A stretch of 64,000 nt of DNA from Chloroflexota bacterium (lineage in GTDB: Bacteria; Chloroflexota; Anaerolineae; Promineifilales; Promineifilaceae). The notes beneath the pieces are model-generated. The model was not told the origin of the DNA and did no database searches. It worked only from the letters and a program-made list of their open reading frames with translations. Location: contig JAGNBF010000018.1 in assembly GCA_018004935.1 (NCBI GenBank), forward strand, positions 1-64,000, in the 5' to 3' direction. Position numbers and translations under genes: made by a program. Positions 3,332 to 47,561 of the stretch are shown piece after piece. How positions within the stretch are numbered: the stretch's first letter is position 1; each line of letters begins with the position of its first letter.

Positions 3332-3454
3332 TTGTATCACCTTAAAACCTCATCTCTTGTTTGAGCCAGCGAAATTCCATCATGTCTAACAAAAGATGTG
3401 AACCCATTTGGGGGATCACGTTGATTTTACAGGCAGAATTGTAGCATATTTAAG

Positions 3455-3565
3455 CGGGAATATTTTCTCCTGCTCAATGGCCTGCTGGTGGTTGCTGTGT
3501 TGATGTTGTTGACAGAACTGGTGGTGGATATTGCGGCCGCGTGGCTCATCCCAATACACCAATAA
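3455..3565 (+). pseudogene. 3' fragment of a membrane permease gene, copy 3
   Basis: The third copy, reading REYFLLLNGLLVVAVLMLL, T-E-L-V-V-D, IAAAWLIP, then IHQ and TAA. The stop and last codons are made by the ACCAATA repeat tract that follows. The frame is kept while third positions differ (for example gtggttgct against gtagtggcc in copy 1), so the copies are old or come from paralogues rather than a recent duplication. Copies 2 and 3 bracket the toxin-antitoxin pair. Confidence 0.6.
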
Positions 3566-3593
3566 CCAATACACCAATACACCACCACCCACC

Positions 3594-4082
3594 CTACGGC
3601 TGACTCACCACCACCGTCGCCACATAATCAGCAAAGGAAATGGGATCGGGCGTTTTGGGATAAGGGTCCAGGCTTTGCAGGTGAATGGAGTACCCGGCTA
3701 CCTCAATCGTGTCACGTAATTCGGTGGGCGCAGGGTTGGTATCGAAGGTAATGGTTTGCGGGGCGTCGGTTCCCGCTTGCACTTCCATCTCTACCACCGC
3801 CCGCCCCGTCCAGAAACATTCCACGTCAGTGGGACAGCGGGAATCTTCAACGACATTCGTGAACGTCACACGTAAATCGGTAGCCGCGACAGAAACGCTT
3901 TCCCCGGCCGGTAAAGCAAACGGTTCATGCAAATTCATGGTGAGCACCCCTTCTATCGTGGGTTCAGAGGGAGTGATAGGCATTGATGTAGGCTCTTCGG
4001 CAGTAGGTTCACCGGCATCGCCCCCCTGGCAGGCCACCAGCAACAGCACCAGACTAAACAGGTAGATCAACTTTTTCATCAT
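3594..4082 (-). CDS. Secreted lipoprotein of unknown function
   Basis: A 162-residue protein with a classic lipoprotein signal: two Met-Lys-Lys residues, a hydrophobic core and the lipobox L-V-A-C with the lipidated Cys at 18. It is followed by a low-complexity linker rich in Glu, Pro and Thr. The mature part is a beta-rich domain with VTFTNVVEDSRCPTDVECFW, where two Cys could form a disulfide. This looks like the small calcium- or metal-influenced lipoproteins common in Chloroflexota, but I cannot name the domain. GAGGTG lies just before the ATG. It is probably anchored on the outer face of the membrane. Confidence 0.75.
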   Translation of the reverse strand: MMKKLIYLFSLVLLLVACQGGDAGEPTAEEPTSMPITPSEPTIEGVLTMNLHEPFALPAGESVSVAATDLRVTFTNVVEDSRCPTDVECFWTGRAVVEMEVQAGTDAPQTITFDTNPAPTELRDTIEVAGYSIHLQSLDPYPKTPDPISFADYVATVVVSQP

Positions 4083-15672: not shown

Positions 15673-18600
15673 ATGAATACTCAACGCCGACTAAACAACG
15701 ACCTCTCCTTTACCCTACCTTCACTGGACAAAATCATCCATCAACTACAGCCGGGTGAACGTCTATGTTATCTATATCAATCCCCGAGTGAACATCAGGC
15801 CATCATTGCCCCTTACATACGTTATGGCCTGGAAAATGGGGAGGCCTGCCTGTATATCACGCAAGAACACACCGTAGCCGAGGTGGAAACATTATTGGCT
15901 TCGTCTGATTTCCCTCTGACTCACTACTTACAGTCAGGGCAATTGATGATTGTACGAGCCGCGGCCGCGTACCAACATGAAGGCCATTTCACCCCGGCCG
16001 CACGGCTTCAATACCTCACCGACCAGACCGAAAAAGCTCTGCAACGCGGGTTTAGGGCTTTGCGCCTCCTGGATGACATGAGTTGGTCTTTGTATGAACC
16101 CCTCGACTCTCGCCAGATCATTGCCCATGAAGCCCACCTCGATGCGTTAACTCACATTCTGCCTGTTGTTGCTATCTGCCAATACAACGACTCCCTTTTC
16201 CCCCCAGAAATTCTGCTCGACACCCTGGTAATCCATTCCCTTATCATCGTTGGGGGAGCCGTATGCCACAATCTCTACTACATCCCACCCGACAAATTCC
16301 TGCAAAGCCTGCACGACCCTCAAAAAGAATATCAGTATTACCTTAATCACCTTCGATCTTCGGCCCAATTGCATCATGCTCTCCAATCTACCGAACGACG
16401 CTACCAGGAATTGTTCAATAACCTGCCCATTGGGCTATACCAGATTACTCGTGAAGGGGAAATCCTCAATGTGAACCAGACCCTGGTTGAGCTATTGCGT
16501 TACCCCAACGCCGAAACCCTACTCCAGAGCAACATCCGTTCACTGTATGTCAACACCAAAGATCAGAACTACCTCTGGGAAAAAATGTGGCTAGATGACC
16601 CCGTGACAGATTTCGTGACCCAAATACGTCGTTATGATGGCACGATTATCTGGGCCAGACAGAACATTCGCACCATCGCCAGCACCACAGAACACCCCGT
16701 AGTTTACGAAGGCATCCTTGAGGACATTACGGATCGTCGGCAGGCGGAAGAAACGTTGCACAAATTGTTGCGTGCCGTAGAACAAACCGATGACAGTGTG
16801 GTGATCACCAATCGCAAAGGGATTATTGAATACATCAATCCGGCCTTTGAACGGCTAACGGGTTACAGTGTCAATGAAGCCCTGGGACAGACCCCCCGCC
16901 TACTCAAATCAGGGGTACATGATGAAAGGTTTTATCAGCAATTGTGGACAGCCATTCTACGCGGCGATACATTTTGGGCGGAGTTTACCAACCGGAAAAA
17001 GAGCGGGGAACTGTATTATCAGGAAGAAACGGTAACACCCATCCGCAACAGTCACGGCGAAATCACCCATTTTGTTTCGACGGGACGAGATATTACGGAA
17101 CGGAAGCGGCAGGAGTTGGAAAGAGCGCAACTGTATGAAGCGGAGCGGCAACAACGCCAGCATGCGGAAGCCTTACATGCGGCTGGTGTCAGTGTCAGCA
17201 GTACGTTAGACATGCAAGAGGTGCTGGAGCGGATTCTCAATGAACTGGGCAAGGTAATTGCTTATGACAGCGCCTCTGTGCTTTTGCCGGAGGGGGATAG
17301 TGTGTGGATCGCGGCCGCACGGGGTTTACCCCTGAAATCTTTATTCGCTCACCAATTGTTCCGGGCCAATGCACTCCTGATTGACATGAAAGAAAACCAC
17401 CAACCCCTTATCCTGGAGGACGCCTCTGCGGATCCCCGCTTTGAACAGTTATCGTCCACCTATTACATCCGGGGGTGGATGGGTGTGCCCCTCCTGGCAC
17501 GAGACAGACTCATTGGTTATCTAACACTGGATAGCCGCACACCGGGGACTTATTCCATCCAACATGCGAATCTGGCGATGGGATTCGCGGTGCAGGCGGC
17601 TATGGCCGTAGAAAATGCCCGCCTGCATCAAGATTTACAAAAGCAGATACAGGTATTGCAAGAAGCCCAGGTACGCCTGATCCAGAGTGAGAAATTGGCG
17701 GCCATTGGCGAACTGATCGCGGGTGTGGCCCATGAGTTAAACAATCCATTGGGCACGGTGATTCTGTATGCCCAGTTGTTACAGCGCAAAATCGGCGACG
17801 CGGCCCAACAAAAGGATTTAAGTATCCTGGTACAGCAGGCTCAGCGAGCGGCTGGGATTGTCCGGGCTTTGCTCGATTTTGCCCGGCAACGACCCCCAGA
17901 ACGGATGCCGATTCAGTTGAATGACATCATTGCCAGCGCCCTCAGTCTCATGGCCTATGAGCTACGTACCCATAATATCCAGTACCGTACCGAGCTAACC
18001 AATGATTTGCCACTGACACTGGCCGATAGCCATCAACTCCAACAAGTATTTATTAATCTGCTTAATAATGCTTACCAGGCGATTAGCAGTGTGCGGCCGC
18101 AAGGCACCCTTACCATCAGCACCGAATTAGGCCCTTCGCTTTTCCTGCGCCAACAGCGCCATTCCCCCCTCATGCTCCGCGCCCGTCTGGCAGATGATGG
18201 CCCAGGGATATCGCCTGAGGCGCTGAATCGTGTTTTTGATCCCTTTTTTACGACCAAACCTCCGGGAGAAGGGACCGGACTGGGGCTTTCTGTTTGCCAT
18301 GGCATTATTAATGAACATGCCGGTCACATTTGGGCCGAGAGTCAACTCGGACAGGGAACGACCTTTTTTGTGGAGATTCCCTGGATCAGGACAAAGCCTG
18401 ATGATGATGAAAGCGTGGCGGAAAATAATGGGCGGCCCGCGGCCGCGATTTCCGGCACCATTTTGATCATTGACGACGAAACGGGCCTGCGCCAGGTAAT
18501 TGCCCGTGCCCTCCGCCAGGAACAGTATCAGGTAGATACGGTGGATGACGGGCAGGCCGGGTGGCAGAAATTACAGACGAATGATTACGATCTGATCTTG

Positions 18601-30519: not shown

Positions 30520-30972
30520 ATGTTTTTGCGACGACCGTTTTTCTTAGGCCGCATGTTAGGGCTATTTTTGCTCTTGGGGGGCTTACTCTTGGGCTTTTCG
30601 GCCGCTTACCGGGCCGGGCAAATGCGCGGCTACATGATGGGCACGATGACTGCCTATCAGCAGACTACTCCACGCGGTGAATCGGCCAGCCCGGAGATGC
30701 CGATGCCGTTTTATGGCCGGGGTTATGATGGGTATAGCGGTTGGGGCACGCGGCCGCATTCCGGCTTTTTCTTCCTCCCCTTCCTCTGCCTGTTGCCATT
30801 AGGGTTCCTCTTCCTGGGGGGTCTCTTCTTCCGGCGGCGCTGGCATCACGGCAAACACGGCCCTATGGGTGGCCCCTGGGGTCATCACCCCGGCAAAGCC
30901 CACTTCTGGGGCGGCCACCCCTGGTCTGGCGAAGGCCCCATTGACCCGGACGAACCCATCCAAAAAGCCTAA
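30520..30972 (+). CDS. Small membrane protein with Gly/His-rich tail
   Basis: A 150-residue protein. The N-terminal helix LGRMLGLFLLLGGLLLGFSA has a following GRAGQMRGYMMGTMTAY-like linker. A second hydrophobic segment (FFLPFLCLLPLGFLFLGGLF) is followed by a basic His/Gly/Trp-rich tail with more than eight His (for example RRRWHHGKHGPMGGPWGHH). Such tails often bind divalent metals; that is an inference. GTAAGGAGA precedes the ATG. It lies just upstream of a two-component pair whose kinase also starts with a His-rich segment. Confidence 0.8.
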   Translation: MFLRRPFFLGRMLGLFLLLGGLLLGFSAAYRAGQMRGYMMGTMTAYQQTTPRGESASPEMPMPFYGRGYDGYSGWGTRPHSGFFFLPFLCLLPLGFLFLGGLFFRRRWHHGKHGPMGGPWGHHPGKAHFWGGHPWSGEGPIDPDEPIQKA

Positions 30973-30987
30973 AAAGCAAAAACAGGG

Positions 30988-31100
30988 TTACACAGAGGGT
31001 CACAGAGGGAAAAACACAGAGATTCACAGAGGGAAAACCAACACCTCTTAAAACTCTGTGCCCCTCTGTGCCTTCTCTGTGTCCTCTGTGTTCCATTTCT
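30988..31100. repeat. Inverted ACACAGAGG/CCTCTGTG repeats
   Basis: Several CACAGAGGG units (30994-31040) face CCTCTGTGCC and TCTCTGTGTCC units (31063-31095). They form a long interrupted stem just upstream of the response regulator gene. Confidence 0.85.
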
Positions 31101-41104: not shown

Positions 41105-42616
41105 TTATAACTGAGCTTGTAACTTAAGCCAGGCTTCGGTGTGGGGGGACTGGATGACGGGGCGACGCAATTCTGTTAAGACATCCTGTACATAGAGTGC
41201 ACGGCGCATTCCCACCAGCACACTGGTAACACCCTGGGTACTCCGCAATACGCGAATGGCTAATTGGCTAAACGTCGCGGCCGCGGCCCAGTCTGGGCTG
41301 ATAGCTTTCACTTTTGCCTGAAGTTGTCCCGCTTCGTCGAGTGCCTGTTCCTGATAATATGCAGTAATGGCCTCAAAGGTCATGTTGGCGGCCGTTATAT
41401 ATTGTTCAATCCAATTGTCTAAGCCTTCGGGCTGTTTTTTCAGCATTTCCAGAAAACGCAGAGCGCTGTTTATGCGCGGAATCAGATACCCTGAACGGGT
41501 TTCAAGCCACCGTTGATGATTGTTGATTCCTAACCAATAACCATCTAGTGCCTGCCCTGCCGAAAGCATCTGACCGAGCTGATCTTGTACATCGGCGGTT
41601 ACATCCAGGACGGGCAGAATATCCCGATGGAGTGTGAGTTCCTGGGCGACCAGATTAGCAATACGGGCATCTACGGCCGCCGGGGAGACGTAATCGGGTT
41701 CGGGCAGATCGGCCAGGCGCGTCAGGTTGCTGTTTTGGTAAGCATTGAGAGGCCGATTGACGAGAACGGCGAGTTGATGTCCCTGGGCAAATTCCAACAC
41801 TGATTGCCCACTGGGCTGGTTAATTTGGGTGACAGCGCCGGTTTCGAGCAGGTTAAGGGGGAGTTGTATGACGCGGAAATGGTGGCGGGCACGGGTTTGC
41901 CGGGCTAATTCCCAGCAAGTGGCGAGGCTGGTAAATTCAGGGTGCGCGGCCGCGTAAGGGAAGCTATTAGAACTGATGCCATAATAACGGATGCGGCCGC
42001 GTTCTACCTCTTTTTCTAAATGAGCAAAGGCCAGCTTAAGGCGACGATAATACTCGGCGCGTGCTTCATCCAGTGGCATTGTCTGAGTTTTGGCCCAACT
42101 GAGGTAATACTCTGGGTTGTGGAGCAGGTATACATCAATGGTGTCCATATCTAACCGGCGTAAACTGCGGGTAATTTGGTCGGCGAGGAACTCGGGGTGG
42201 ATACAATGCTCCAGGTCGCTCATGTATGGAACCAGGTCAGGGAAAGGTTGACCCAATTCGCGGCGACGCTGGCTCAATTGAAAATTACTTCCCTGCAAAT
42301 AGCCCCCTTTGGTTACGATCACCAGTTGGTCTCGTTGGAGTTGCCCCTGGCGCACCAGGGCATTGATGGTTTGCCCGATAAGTTCTTCCGAACCACCATC
42401 GGCATAGTTGGTACTGGTATCTATGAGGTTGATACCCTCGACCAGGGCCAGGTTTAAGGCCTCGTGATAGCCAGGTATGCCTGTATCCACCCGGTAGCCC
42501 CCAAAACCGACGGGGCTGACATGCAAACCCGTCTCGCTCAGGGAGTGAAACGTTAAGTCGGGATGCGCGGCCGCGTATCTTTGGGTTCCTTCAGGGGTGG
42601 CAAAGCCATTTAACAT
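41105..42616 (-). CDS. Aldo/keto reductase, enlarged form
   Basis: A 503-residue protein; typical aldo/keto reductases have 300-340. The N-terminal barrel part is clear: VSPVGFGGYRVD, INLIDTSTNYADGGSEELIG (catalytic D and Y), LVIVTKGGYLQG and DTIDVYLLHNPEYYLS (H position). IRYYGISSNSFPYA and FRVIQLPLNLLE follow. Beyond about 300 an added helical block of roughly 150 residues precedes a final barrel piece with LAIRVLRSTQGVTSVLVGMR. NADPH-dependent oxidation or reduction of a sugar or steroid is likely. The ATG at 42616 has AGGAGGAG before it; the upstream extension is repeat sequence. Confidence 0.88.
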   Translation of the reverse strand: MLNGFATPEGTQRYAAAHPDLTFHSLSETGLHVSPVGFGGYRVDTGIPGYHEALNLALVEGINLIDTSTNYADGGSEELIGQTINALVRQGQLQRDQLVIVTKGGYLQGSNFQLSQRRRELGQPFPDLVPYMSDLEHCIHPEFLADQITRSLRRLDMDTIDVYLLHNPEYYLSWAKTQTMPLDEARAEYYRRLKLAFAHLEKEVERGRIRYYGISSNSFPYAAAHPEFTSLATCWELARQTRARHHFRVIQLPLNLLETGAVTQINQPSGQSVLEFAQGHQLAVLVNRPLNAYQNSNLTRLADLPEPDYVSPAAVDARIANLVAQELTLHRDILPVLDVTADVQDQLGQMLSAGQALDGYWLGINNHQRWLETRSGYLIPRINSALRFLEMLKKQPEGLDNWIEQYITAANMTFEAITAYYQEQALDEAGQLQAKVKAISPDWAAAATFSQLAIRVLRSTQGVTSVLVGMRRALYVQDVLTELRRPVIQSPHTEAWLKLQAQL

Positions 42617-42639
42617 ACAAAGCTCCTCCTGCGAAAATA

Positions 42640-42800
42640 GCCACTGATGGTGGAAACATGGATAGGAAAGAACACGGATGGGGATGAAAAATGGTGGCGT
42701 TATTTTCATCCCTCTTGGTGTGCGTTCCGTCCATGGGGAACTCCTACGAAAATGTAGGGCGATTTGGTAAATCGCCCGGTAAGAGGAAGAAAATAATTAA
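42640..42800. repeat. Element D copy, ends in a GATTT palindrome
   Basis: GCGAAAATAGCCACTGATGG, GAAAGAACACGGATGGGGAT and TTTTCATCCCTCTTGGTGTG lead to TGTAGGGCGATTTGGTAAAT. The same order with small changes occurs at 59590-59800. It lies upstream of the aldo/keto reductase gene. Confidence 0.85.
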
Positions 42801-42912: not shown

Positions 42913-43806
42913 TCAATGTAACCCTTTTTTCTTCCAATAACGCATAATGCCATCTACTGACATATATAAAGGGTTGGCGGCTACGTATCGGGTAAAGTCG
43001 GATTCAGAAATGCCGACTGCGGCCGCACGTTCCCAGTTCCATTGTTCATACAATGAAACCAGATTATCCCGGTCTACCCCATGGAGCATTTGATCGTGCA
43101 CAAAGAGCGCGGCCGCGTCCAGCAACTCACGAAACTCATCCAAATGGGTATGGACATCATCTACTGGCCCAGCATGGGTAGGATAAAGCCGTTGAAAATT
43201 GGCCCCCTTTAACCGGGCAAGCGTCTCCTGCCATACTTCCCAGTTAAATTCTGGGGGTGGGGCGGGCAAATCTCTCAAGGGACTCCCAGGCAGACAAATC
43301 CCTGCCGCATCACCGGTAAAAGCGACATCCTCTAGCTGATAGGTGTGATGATGATTCGCATGACCGGGAGTATCGAGGGCCGTAAAGGTCAAACCCGCCG
43401 CCTGAATTTTGTCTCCATCGTAGAGAGCGGTAACTTGTGTCGCGGGTGAGGCTAAAAAAGCACCCCATAATTCATCCATGCGGTCGCCATAAATGCGGGT
43501 GGCGCTGGCCAGCAATTTGGAAGGATCAATCAGATGGGGTGCGCCCAGGTGATGCACATAGATTTGTGTTCCTTGTTGGGCCCACCAGCCTGCGGCTCCG
43601 GCATGGTCCAGGTGTATGTGGGTTACAAGCAAATGTTTGATATCTTGCGGAACATAGCCAAACTCGGCTAACCGTGCGTGTAATGTTTTGAGCGTCGAGC
43701 CGGGACCTGTTTCAACCAGTACTGGCCCGCCTGGCCCCACCACCAGATAGGCCACGGTGACATTGGGTTTGCCTTGATAATGTAAGTCTAGGGCATGAAT
43801 CTGCAT
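42913..43806 (-). CDS. MBL-fold metallo-hydrolase
   Basis: A 297-residue hydrolase of the metallo-beta-lactamase fold. The metal motif HIHLDHAGAAGWW lies near residue 75 and a second His is in LDTPGHANHHHTY near 165. The metal-bridging Asp is in VAFTGDAAGI near 180, and a third His is in YPTHAGPVDDVHTHL near 230. A helical C-terminal domain follows. Members hydrolyse lactones, thioesters or phosphodiesters, and the substrate is not determined. The ATG at 43806 has GAGGTT before it and is preferred to an upstream in-frame start. Confidence 0.92.
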   Translation of the reverse strand: MQIHALDLHYQGKPNVTVAYLVVGPGGPVLVETGPGSTLKTLHARLAEFGYVPQDIKHLLVTHIHLDHAGAAGWWAQQGTQIYVHHLGAPHLIDPSKLLASATRIYGDRMDELWGAFLASPATQVTALYDGDKIQAAGLTFTALDTPGHANHHHTYQLEDVAFTGDAAGICLPGSPLRDLPAPPPEFNWEVWQETLARLKGANFQRLYPTHAGPVDDVHTHLDEFRELLDAAALFVHDQMLHGVDRDNLVSLYEQWNWERAAAVGISESDFTRYVAANPLYMSVDGIMRYWKKKGLH

Positions 43807-43934
43807 AACAACCTCATTGGAGGGTAGCACAAGAGCCAAAACATTAAATAGTTACCCGGTCTCTGGCGCTACGTCTATCGTTGCTAAAAAGTATCCCTGA
43901 AAATGGGTCAAACTTTCCTCCGCTAAGCCTGTTG

Positions 43935-44024: not shown

Positions 44025-45212
44025 TCACCAGTCGGACTTACTGAGTAAATACCAAATCTGACCTTGCCCCCTTTTACCGCGGCCGCGCCAATACACCTCT
44101 TCCCCTTTTTGTTTTGTCACAGCTTCGGCCCCCTGAGCAAAAAAACGTTTATGGCGTGGGCCGTTCCCCGCTGTCCCTTGTTGCCGCAGGTCTGCCAGCC
44201 GCCGATTAAGTCGTTTTTGGTGCCGTTTGGGTTGGGGCTGATGAGGCCCTGTGTAATCATTGGGAAGTTGCCAGGCCAGATAGGTCGTGTGGGCCTGCCC
44301 TTGCTCTCCATTGTAATCAGTAAAGGTGAACATACCCGACCCCCGTTGCCACGCGCACTCTTCTTGTGTTTCTGGGGTAGCGATTTCCCCCAGGGCGAAG
44401 TTAGTCTGCGGCCGCACACCGACCCGTTTTTCATAACTCCGTTGGGTTTGGTGGCTTACCCCTGAGAGGTGGCTCAGAGTCGCACGGGCAATAGGCTGAT
44501 GGGGATGGTTGCGGCCGCTGTGAAAGCTGGCATAAAAATGGGCCTTCACTTCTCCAATGGGCCGGGTGAGTGTCAGCAGGGGTAAAATGATGGGGTAGCC
44601 GGAGAGGTGTGTAAGACCAAGCGCGGCCGCGACCTTCACCACCGAGCGGAGCCATAGCCGGTCTCCTTGCTTTTGCCAAAATAGCCCTTCTCCCTGGCCT
44701 AACAAAATCCGTAATTGCCGCCAGCCACAAAGCCGCCATACCGAAGTCGCATCGCATAGAGATCGCCGTACCTGCGCCATCTCTAGCCAGCCACGGCCCG
44801 CTTCATCCAAATGTCGTAATAAAAACCAGATGCGGCTTTCGGCCACACGATTGTGGTTAAGAAGAGCCAATGCCAGATCTGGGGAGAGGGTGAGTGTTGC
44901 GGGAGGGGTAGAGGCAGGGGGAAACTCTGCGGCCGCGGTCCCCATAAAAAAGGCATTCTCAACAAACACCGGTTTGCCCGCCTGCGGCTGTTGCCCCAAT
45001 CGGGAAAGAGACTCACTGTGCCAACCCAGATGCGTTGGCCAGATCGTCATGGGTGGGCTTGTTTTTCCCAATTGATCCTTTATCGGCGACTCAACTGGTT
45101 CACGGTAAATGTGTACTTGTTGCCGTAACGCCAACAACTTCTCTTGAGCCGCCAATAACGCCTGCGATGGCTGTGTATCCACCTTGCACCACACCCGGCA
45201 AACACCATAACC
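44025..45212 (-). CDS. Putative DNA-binding protein, replication-initiator-like
   Basis: About 395 residues; the family is not recognised. The middle has ALALLNHNRVAESRIWFLLR, a winged-helix-like DEAGRGWLEMAQVRRSLCDA and GWRQLRILLGQGEGLFW. Then RATLSHLSGVSHQTQRSYEK, VGVRPQ looks like a second helix-turn-helix. The C-terminus is basic and Gln-rich. Two winged helices in a row, divergent from an origin-like intergenic region, are the layout of many plasmid Rep proteins; that reading is an inference. The start is uncertain: a TTG at 45245 and ATG at 45212 are possible, without a good ribosome site. It carries five GCGGCCGC words, so it is not a very recent arrival. Confidence 0.6.
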   Translation of the reverse strand, partial: GYGVCRVWCKVDTQPSQALLAAQEKLLALRQQVHIYREPVESPIKDQLGKTSPPMTIWPTHLGWHSESLSRLGQQPQAGKPVFVENAFFMGTAAAEFPPASTPPATLTLSPDLALALLNHNRVAESRIWFLLRHLDEAGRGWLEMAQVRRSLCDATSVWRLCGWRQLRILLGQGEGLFWQKQGDRLWLRSVVKVAAALGLTHLSGYPIILPLLTLTRPIGEVKAHFYASFHSGRNHPHQPIARATLSHLSGVSHQTQRSYEKRVGVRPQTNFALGEIATPETQEECAWQRGSGMFTFTDYNGEQGQAHTTYLAWQLPNDYTGPHQPQPKRHQKRLNRRLADLRQQGTAGNGPRHKRFFAQGAEAVTKQKGEEVYWRGRGKRGQGQIWYLLSKSDW

Positions 45213-45275
45213 CATAAGCCAAAGGAGTGAGGCAACATAAAACAAGCGTTACGCTGAGAACAGCCTACGCTTGCA

Positions 45276-45304
45276 TTGACACCGATCTGGCCGTGTGTTA
45301 TGCT
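45276..45304 (+). promoter_or_regulatory. Strong sigma-70-like promoter, divergent from the rep-like gene
   Basis: TTGACA (45276-45281) and TATGCT (45299-45304) have exactly 17 bases between them. The only thing it can transcribe before a terminator is a region of about 145 bases with no convincing gene. Confidence 0.7.
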
Positions 45305-45310
45305 TTTTGC

Positions 45311-45455
45311 AACTGTGAGGCTTCCGGGAGGAATGCAAAAATCCCCCTCCCCAAAGAAAGGGGCATACACTTTACCTTATTTGCAGACCGGTAGTGTGAT
45401 GGGAAGCTTTGTTTATACAAAGGCCGGGCGCGCGTACGCCTGGCCTTTTCGTTTC
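45311..45455 (+). ncRNA. Candidate small RNA between promoter and terminator
   Basis: The interval lies between a near-consensus promoter and an intrinsic terminator. The transcript could fold: TTTTTGCA (near 45304-45311) with TGCAAAAA (near 45333-45340), CCCCTCCCC with AGGGG, and the terminator stem. The only frame through it has 71 codons and no ribosome site. It lies antisense to any leader of the rep-like gene, as copy-number RNAs do in plasmids. It matches no known RNA that I can recall. Confidence 0.4.
45420..45450 (+). terminator. Intrinsic terminator
   Basis: AAGGCCGGGCG (45420-45430) pairs with CGCCTGGCCTT (45437-45447), one mismatch, followed by TTTTCGTTTCTT. Confidence 0.75.
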
Positions 45456-45631: not shown

Positions 45632-45661
45632 ACAGTAAAAAGAAGAACTTCTTTTTACTGT
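45632..45661. repeat. 30-bp inverted repeat near the origin-like region
   Basis: ACAGTAAAAAGAAG (45632-45645), AA, then CTTCTTTTTACTGT (45648-45661). It could be a regulator site or the terminator of an opposing transcript. Confidence 0.75.
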
Positions 45662-45689: not shown

Positions 45690-45955
45690 GAAACCTGAAC
45701 CGTATTAACAGACATTTGTTGCTATCTATCCCCTAAACCTGACTGATAACAAGAACAAATGTATTAAAAACGCAATCAAGGCGATCCTAACATAATTGAT
45801 TGCCCTTGTCAATCAATCTATAGGCTATAGATTGGCGAAAACATAAGAGTTTATGCCAAATATCCACAAGCTATCCACAGGTAGTGGGTATTTGTCCACA
45901 GCCAGGGCAGGAGAAACAATATAGTTATCCCCAATACTGGACAGTTATCCCTGAA
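45690..45955. other. Candidate replication origin with phased DnaA-box-like sites
   Basis: Five near-matches to the DnaA box TTATNCACA lie in one orientation: ATATCCACA (45860), CTATCCACA (45871), TTGTCCACA (45892), TTATCCCCA (45925) and TTATCCCTG (45945). Start-to-start distances are 11, 21, 33 and 20 bases, close to whole helical turns. To the left is an AT-rich stretch (45690-45850) with inverted repeats ACATTTGTT/AACAAATGT and CAATCTATA-GGC-TATAGATTG (45814-45834). No dnaA, dnaN or rpmH gene is near, so a plasmid-type or secondary origin is more likely than a standard oriC. Confidence 0.55.
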
Positions 45956-46082
45956 TTTGTGAAAATGGGGGAAATTAGTTGCTCTTTCTCCTCTGGTTTG
46001 GTTATATCCAATAGTCGTTTACGCATAAGACCCTGGCTTTTACTGACAACCGGGTGGGAGAAATCACTTCAGGACACAGACA

Positions 46083-46961
46083 ATGATGGAAAATATAAAA
46101 CTCGAATTTTTTAGCAAAGCTGATTGGAGCCGTCTGGGGCTGGTTGTCCCCCCTTTTAGTATCGAAGCTGATCCTCGCTTCATGTACATTTCGGTAGATA
46201 CACGACGTGCCCTGTCAAAGGTGAGTTTCATGGTGGAGTCAGGGCAGGGGGCATCTATCATTGTCGGTGAAGTGGGCACAGGTAAAACAACGTTGGCCAC
46301 CTGGTTTCATAGCCGTTACCAACGTCGCCCGGACTTTGTGGCTGCCCGTGTGGATGAACCGCCTAAACGAAGTGGTTTGCTTCTGCTCCGCCGTATCGCC
46401 GCCGAATTGGGCATCCGCACCCGTCGGGCTACGGAAGATCAGTTGAATGAGTTTCGTGCCTTCCTCATCAAACAAAGTGAAAAGGGTATCATTCCCCTCA
46501 TTATTATTGACGAAGCCCATGAATTAAGTGCGGAGCAATTTGTGGAATTACGGCGTCTTTTGAACTTTCGGGATCCCGGCGGCCGCAAAGCTTATCAGCT
46601 TGTGCTCCTGGGTCGCCCAGAGCTGGATATTAACCTGCGTGAAGTCCCCGATTTTAATGACCGGGTAGCAACGCGTTCCTCTCTGGACCCACTTACCCCG
46701 GAAGATACCAAATCTTTAATTGAGTACCGCCTTTTGGCCGCGGGGCGAGATGTCAAACAACCACAACTATTCAATGATGATGCAGTACTCCCTATTTGGC
46801 GGGAAACGCGCGGTTATCCCCGGAGTATTTGCCTGTTGTGTCTGCATCTGTGCTTGCATTTGTTAGATCAGAATGCTCCCCAGGTAGATGAAGCGTTTGT
46901 GGCCTGGTTTCTGGAGAAAGAACATAGCTACCGGCAACTTTTGGGTGATAAGCGAGCTTAG
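46083..46961 (+). CDS. ExeA/TniB-like AAA ATPase
   Basis: A 292-residue ATPase. FSIEADPRFMYISVDTRRAL near the N-terminus is the usual ExeA/TniB opening. Walker A GEVGTGKTT is at 62-70 and Walker B IIIDEAHEL at 141-149. A sensor-1-like VLLGRPELDINL and FNDRVATRSSLDPLTPEDT follow, then an Arg-rich lid. Family members act in type II secretion (ExeA), Tn7-like transposition (TnsC/TniB) or plasmid maintenance. No transposase or secretin gene is near. It starts 130 bases after the DnaA-box-like cluster and is followed by a basic protein gene on the same strand. Confidence 0.9.
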   Translation: MMENIKLEFFSKADWSRLGLVVPPFSIEADPRFMYISVDTRRALSKVSFMVESGQGASIIVGEVGTGKTTLATWFHSRYQRRPDFVAARVDEPPKRSGLLLLRRIAAELGIRTRRATEDQLNEFRAFLIKQSEKGIIPLIIIDEAHELSAEQFVELRRLLNFRDPGGRKAYQLVLLGRPELDINLREVPDFNDRVATRSSLDPLTPEDTKSLIEYRLLAAGRDVKQPQLFNDDAVLPIWRETRGYPRSICLLCLHLCLHLLDQNAPQVDEAFVAWFLEKEHSYRQLLGDKRA

Positions 46962-47012: not shown

Positions 47013-47561
47013 ATGAGTAAACAACCGCAACGAGAAGAAAGCACCCTAACGGCGTTGTTGCGTGAAAAACCCAAACGCGGCCGCCCCCGTCATGCTGTCA
47101 GTCGCCAGAGTGTGTATGTGGCGCTGACGGTAGAGCAAAAAGAACTGGTTAAACAATTAGCGGAAACTCTGAATGAGGGGTTAGACCGGTCTGATATACC
47201 GGATATGGCGGTGATGCTTTTGGCGGTGCGTTTAGAAGCCTTGCGCCGGGCAGTGTCTGATCGGGATCGAGAGATGCCGGAGGGGATTACGGTTCTAGAT
47301 TCTCTTTATTTGTTATGGGATGTGCCGTTGCCGTTGCCTTCTGAAGCGTCCTGGACATCTATTCGTCTTTCGCCACAACAGATTATTCAGTTGGGGCGAT
47401 CCCAGGGTTTGCTCCATGCTTTATTTAATGCGAATCGGAGTGAAGTGTTTAGTTTGGGGCTTGGTTTATTGAAGCTTTTGCTGGAGAGCGAAGCCTTGCC
47501 CTTGGCGGATGTTCACACCCTGAATGACTTTGAAACCAAAATGACGATGATTTATTTGTGA
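47013..47561 (+). CDS. Basic protein of unknown function, AT-hook-like start
   Basis: 182 residues. The N-terminus has EKPKRGRPRHAVSRQSVYVA, in which KRGRPRH resembles an AT-hook. A helical region, LTVEQKELVKQLAETLNEGL, and a hydrophobic C-terminal half with LGRSQGLLHALFNANRSEVF follow. A ribbon-helix-helix fold in the first 70 residues is possible. It starts 51 bases after the ATPase gene and is probably co-transcribed. A DNA-binding partner for the ATPase is a reasonable inference. No family recognised. Confidence 0.65.
   Translation: MSKQPQREESTLTALLREKPKRGRPRHAVSRQSVYVALTVEQKELVKQLAETLNEGLDRSDIPDMAVMLLAVRLEALRRAVSDRDREMPEGITVLDSLYLLWDVPLPLPSEASWTSIRLSPQQIIQLGRSQGLLHALFNANRSEVFSLGLGLLKLLLESEALPLADVHTLNDFETKMTMIYL

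Follow-up and report, generated by a model that had tools for sequence, protein, structure and literature searches.

Bacterial oriC clusters are characterized by several near-consensus DnaA boxes on the same strand, adjoining an AT-rich stretch. Such an arrangement is found at 45860-45953 of the window, that is, of the whole 64-kb stretch of DNA from a member of the Chloroflexota that was analyzed here. Unlike oriC clusters, it lies outside any dnaA/dnaN context and is not conserved, and a better array is present elsewhere in the same genome. DnaA boxes also occur outside origins, in titration or control sites of the datA/DARS kind; the window cluster resembles these in its placement, but differs in being unconserved and in lying in a promoter region. 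A third point of comparison is the mini-F type of origin, which combines RepE with DnaA boxes. Here too, DnaA-like boxes, a palindrome next to a likely rep promoter, and a neighboring gene whose product is modelled with possible tandem winged helices are found together. However, this product has no sequence similarity to RepE, no iterons were seen, and the window locus is chromosomal, conserved in the family, and accompanied by a divergent structured RNA.

Plasmids such as pIP501, pT181 and R1 control their copy number by means of antisense RNAs. In the window, a small structured RNA that has a promoter and a terminator of its own is encoded on the strand opposite to the predicted leader of a gene with an initiator-like product, and its position appears to resemble that of an antisense copy-control RNA. 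It differs from the plasmid examples in that it has no relative in Rfam, and in that several tandem RNA copies exist at some paralogous loci. Finally, the best sequence relatives of the ATPase encoded next to the cluster are AAA ATPases of the TnsC/MuB/ExeA kind, but its scores fall below the curated cut-offs of these specific families, and no transposase was recognised in its neighborhood. Our literature search on Chloroflexota origins, and on plasmids of the family studied here, returned nothing relevant.

In this report, we compare the locus with its counterparts in the same bacterial family, and examine a proposal made in an initial annotation, namely that the box cluster is a candidate origin. 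Our main finding is that the cluster was seen in the window lineage only, within a control region and gene order that the family conserves together with a structured RNA. We tentatively read the whole as a plasmid-derived module, and the boxes as a local DnaA-binding switch.

Five DnaA-box-like sites and the adjoining control region

All five sites of the initial annotation were found on the + strand in a single orientation. Site 1 (ATATCCACA, 45860-45868), site 2 (CTATCCACA, 45871-45879), site 3 (TTGTCCACA, 45892-45900) and site 4 (TTATCCCCA, 45925-45933) have one mismatch each to TTATCCACA, and site 5 (TTATCCCTG, 45945-45953) has two. Successive sites are 11, 21, 33 and 20 bp apart, which gives offsets from site 1 of about 0, 0.5, 0.5, 2 and 1 modulo 10.5 bp, so that the earlier remark that they share one helical face holds. 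Chance was rejected as the origin of the cluster: in 300 simulated 64-kb sequences, generated with a first-order Markov model and with the same dinucleotide make-up as the window, the largest group of same-strand boxes within 95 bp comprised one box (279 runs) or two (21 runs), compared to four in the real sequence. The pattern TTWTNCACA taken alone is not above chance level in the 64-kb window, and the case therefore depends on the clustering of near-consensus boxes. A multi-copy repeat was also considered as the source of the cluster and discarded, as only short partial matches exist elsewhere in the genome.

The stretch that adjoins the sites (45690-45859) is 64% AT, versus 47% for the whole window, and includes a palindrome (AATCTATAGGCTATAGATT, 45815-45833), in line with the AT-rich flank with inverted repeats described initially. 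This palindrome, a likely operator, is kept in nearly all family orthologs, where its conserved form is AATCTATAGgCTATAGATT; in many genomes a third half-site is located exactly 31 bp ahead of the palindrome AATCTATAGnCTATAGATT. The search for iterons recovered three half-sites alone (AGTCTATC, AATCTATA and TATAGATT), the first two of them 31 bp apart. Beside the palindrome is a leftward sigma70-type promoter (TTGACA-17-TAGGAT, 45784-45812, - strand), whose conserved form, TTGACA-17-TAGACT or a near variant, was found in 31 of 32 orthologous sequences; some relatives are included in these 32 under two locus names, so that the counts refer to sequences and not to independent genomes. Since the conserved parts of the AT-rich, inverted-repeat stretch are promoters and the palindrome, this stretch, for all its resemblance to an unwinding element, is mainly a control region conserved in the family. 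Upstream of it lies a perfect inverted repeat of 13 bp (ACAGTAAAAAGAAGAACTTCTTTTTACTGT, 45632-45661).

On the other side, a promoter of the form TTGACA-17-TAnnnT stands directly before the ATPase gene in 25 of the 32 orthologous sequences. The window lacks it, as do six other sequences for the motif as written, and has at 45938-45966 (+ strand) a weak promoter-like match, TGGACA-17-GAAAAT, that overlaps site 5. The box cluster itself was found at none of the orthologous loci of relatives carrying the ATPase locus, a comparison that covered genomes of the family from genera other than that of the window. The conservation of the sites in relatives, which had been put forward as a check on the origin proposal, was thus not observed at any of these loci.

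Conserved genes and a structured small RNA

The genes that flank the control region encode an AAA ATPase (46083-46961, + strand) and a protein modelled with winged-helix domains (44025-45245, - strand), which agrees with the ATPase and DNA-binding-like protein named in the initial annotation. A single close match to the ATPase was obtained per genome of the family; these orthologs are present in most family genomes and are 73-84% identical (about 80%). Downstream of it is encoded a tandem ribbon-helix-helix (RHH) protein (47013-47561, + strand), the structure of which matches a subunit of the F relaxosome, presumably TraY, with Z up to 9.0. A gene for a metallo-beta-lactamase-fold (MBL) protein (42913-43839, - strand) is a further conserved neighbor, and the order MBL, winged-helix, ATPase, RHH is kept across the family. 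At 42600-42709, a dispersed repeat that is also present at 3404-3742 of locus L162 supplies the N-terminal part of a long ORF (MKITPPFFIPIRV...), and for this reason the start codon mechanically assigned to that ORF is probably wrong.

The winged-helix protein matched no family above cut-off in Pfam, NCBIfam, PADLOC or PHROGs, a profile search of the PDB gave no match, and no relative was present in known plasmid and phage records or in viral contigs. Its relatives occur almost exclusively in this bacterial family, with 11 matches in the window's genome, some of which are fragments. The predicted model has winged-helix-like domains and a core pLDDT mostly above 90. Among the aligned structures, the matches covering both domains are those to RepE54 and related Rep entries; for RepE54 they reach Z 6.1-6.5 over 156-171 residues spanning 113-333, that is, under 8 and below the safe level, and the Foldseek probability for likeness to RepE is about 0.2, in the grey zone. 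Values of Z in this range can mean a common arrangement alone, and on the strength of the model the protein is a possible RepE-like replication initiator.

A structured small RNA of about 150 nt is encoded at 45303-45454 (+ strand), with a promoter at 45276-45304 (TTGACA-17-TATGCT) and an intrinsic terminator hairpin at 45419-45448, and lies antisense to the predicted leader of the winged-helix gene. Its structure is supported by covariation: 14 of 31 pairs have changes on both sides, versus 5.6 in shuffles, with support for the base stem and the terminator, and sliding the pairing abolishes the signal. A covariance model finds the RNA in 47 of 52 family genomes, often together with weaker extra copies; in the window's RNA, the central hairpin is divergent. 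Rfam yielded no match once chance hits to miRNAs were disregarded, and this small RNA family is undescribed.

The extra copies have a winged-helix paralog beside them at all eight loci fetched (8/8), although one of these paralogs, at the end of a contig, gave just a weak and partial hit. At L249, the locus examined most closely, RNA and paralog have the divergent orientation that is also found in the window. Pairs of RNA and winged-helix gene were found at L249, L250, L251, L252, L253, L255 and L256, with several copies per genome, and the RNA copies are in tandem at some loci, as on contig C25 of the window's genome. Neighbors of the paralogous pairs include ParB and ParA (L256), ParA (L252) and TraG-like ATPases (L249 and L255). 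These neighbors, and the near-confinement of the winged-helix protein to the family, point to the pairs as a module for the replication of plasmids or integrative elements.

A proposed plasmid-derived control region and competing explanations

The explanation that we favor, with a confidence just short of even, is that a gene module of plasmid descent has become established in the family's chromosomes, that the locus is its control region, and that the boxes are a lineage-specific, local DnaA-binding switch. The initiator-like winged-helix protein would be read leftward from the conserved promoter at 45812-45784. The small RNA would be read rightward from within the leader, and would therefore be antisense to it and limit expression of the winged-helix protein. 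One of the DNA-binding proteins of the module probably binds the palindrome at 45815-45833. In the window lineage only, the DnaA-box cluster occupies the place held in most relatives by the ATPase promoter; there DnaA, to judge from the boxes the obvious candidate binder, would most likely regulate the ATPase genes or be titrated, rather than start chromosome replication. A local switch of this type is more likely than the main origin of the chromosome.

It is conceivable, but on balance unlikely, that the cluster is related to an array widespread in the family, as a decayed form or a copy of it, and has no present function. Three-box arrays on a single strand, with spacings of mostly 20-21 bp, are present in 43 of 52 family genomes (a reversed control pattern gave few), and adjoin dnaA in G001, G022, G018 and G026. 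With a profile of these arrays, the best match in the window's genome is an intergenic array on contig C118, at 16.5 kb (46.0 bits; 16528-16577, loci L128/L132), behind which stand tandem copies of the dispersed repeat that is also found at 42600-42709 of the window. Next is an array within a gene on contig C72 (35 bits), and the window cluster, at 11.4 and 10.7 bits, does not match the profile. The C72 array (30967-30996, L126) and those at L175, L181, L186 and L196 lie, in several genomes, within or at the edge of a coding region for a glycosyltransferase-like membrane protein. Positions 45923-45950 of the window, which take in site 4, align with the C118 array over 28 bp, with 89% identity, and both arrays have TATGCCAA before the boxes and GGGGGAAA after them; because of this likeness, the two may be related, with the window cluster having diverged. 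Sites 4 and 5 are degenerate, which together with the low profile score would fit decay. However, the regular same-face spacing, the retention together of four one-mismatch boxes, and the location in a promoter region argue against this reading.

About as improbable is a plasmid-type origin, active or dormant, in which the winged-helix protein would be the initiator, DnaA would sit on the boxes, the AT-rich stretch would melt, and the RNA would limit initiation. This idea draws on the weak, two-domain RepE likeness of the modelled protein and on the paralogs beside ParA/ParB and transfer genes, as well as on the AT-rich stretch next to the boxes. Against it, the boxes are not kept together with the module, no iteron array was seen, and promoters and operator account for the AT-rich region. 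GC skew in relatives bears on the same point. In G023, whose assembly has three contigs, contig C2 shows negative skew between about 450 and 870 kb, and the cumulative minimum within the contiguous 750-1004 kb is at 871 kb, on the orthologous locus, with dnaA 200 kb away. In G007, skew is negative over 400 kb, from 205 kb up to the contig end at the orthologous locus. Such a local minimum could come from divergent transcription together with the rRNA operon of some relatives, in which a 16S rRNA gene lies next after the ATPase and RHH genes (L098:7171-8125, L104:7089-7118 and L019:1-327); the window has other genes at this place. Moreover, the remaining large contig of G023 (C1) has no clear skew pattern. 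These data are suggestive at most of an origin at the locus. No change of skew sign occurs at either of the three-box arrays of G023. The contigs of many relatives end close to the locus.

Distinctly less probable still is that the plasmid module, domesticated throughout the family, provides the chromosome with a second origin or a substitute for the usual one, for which DnaA boxes were recruited in the window lineage. We consider it very improbable that another regulator, with no relation to DnaA, has its sites in the TATCCACA repeats: two sites are weak, and CTATCCACAGGTAGTGGGTAT is additionally able to form a short hairpin, but the repeats match both the DnaA consensus and the arrays adjoining dnaA in relatives.

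The initial proposal of an origin is supported in part: the sites are real, but their assignment to a chromosomal oriC is not supported. The window belongs to the 88-kb contig C112 of a draft genome of 8.0 Mb in 229 contigs, and dnaA is on contig C98. In line with the initial annotation, which saw no standard oriC genes nearby, neither dnaA nor dnaN is near the cluster, and no replication genes were found beside it in the window; origins unlinked to dnaA exist, so that the missing linkage merely lowers the claim. The skew check that had been proposed with it was not decisive: on the window's own contig the minimum, at about 38 kb, is some 8 kb from the cluster (with weak skew and draft contigs), while the local minimum of G023 falls on the orthologous locus. 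The C118 array, with neither adjacent replication genes nor a skew mark, is for these reasons unproven as the chromosomal origin. That the window cluster is the chromosome's main oriC is the least probable reading of all: five boxes with an AT-rich flank, in a genome whose dnaA lacks a box array within 10 kb, are outweighed by the better, family-type intergenic array on C118, the absence of replication genes and of conservation, and the displaced skew minimum.

If the module is correctly identified, a whole bacterial family would retain plasmid-like replication or maintenance genes at a core locus of its chromosomes, and with them a structured RNA that is undescribed. This would be a rare instance of plasmid control machinery in chromosomal use, and the DnaA sites of the window lineage would show one route by which a locus of this type becomes linked to the host cycle. 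The pairing of RNA and initiator would also provide a handle on unknown mobile elements of the Chloroflexota.
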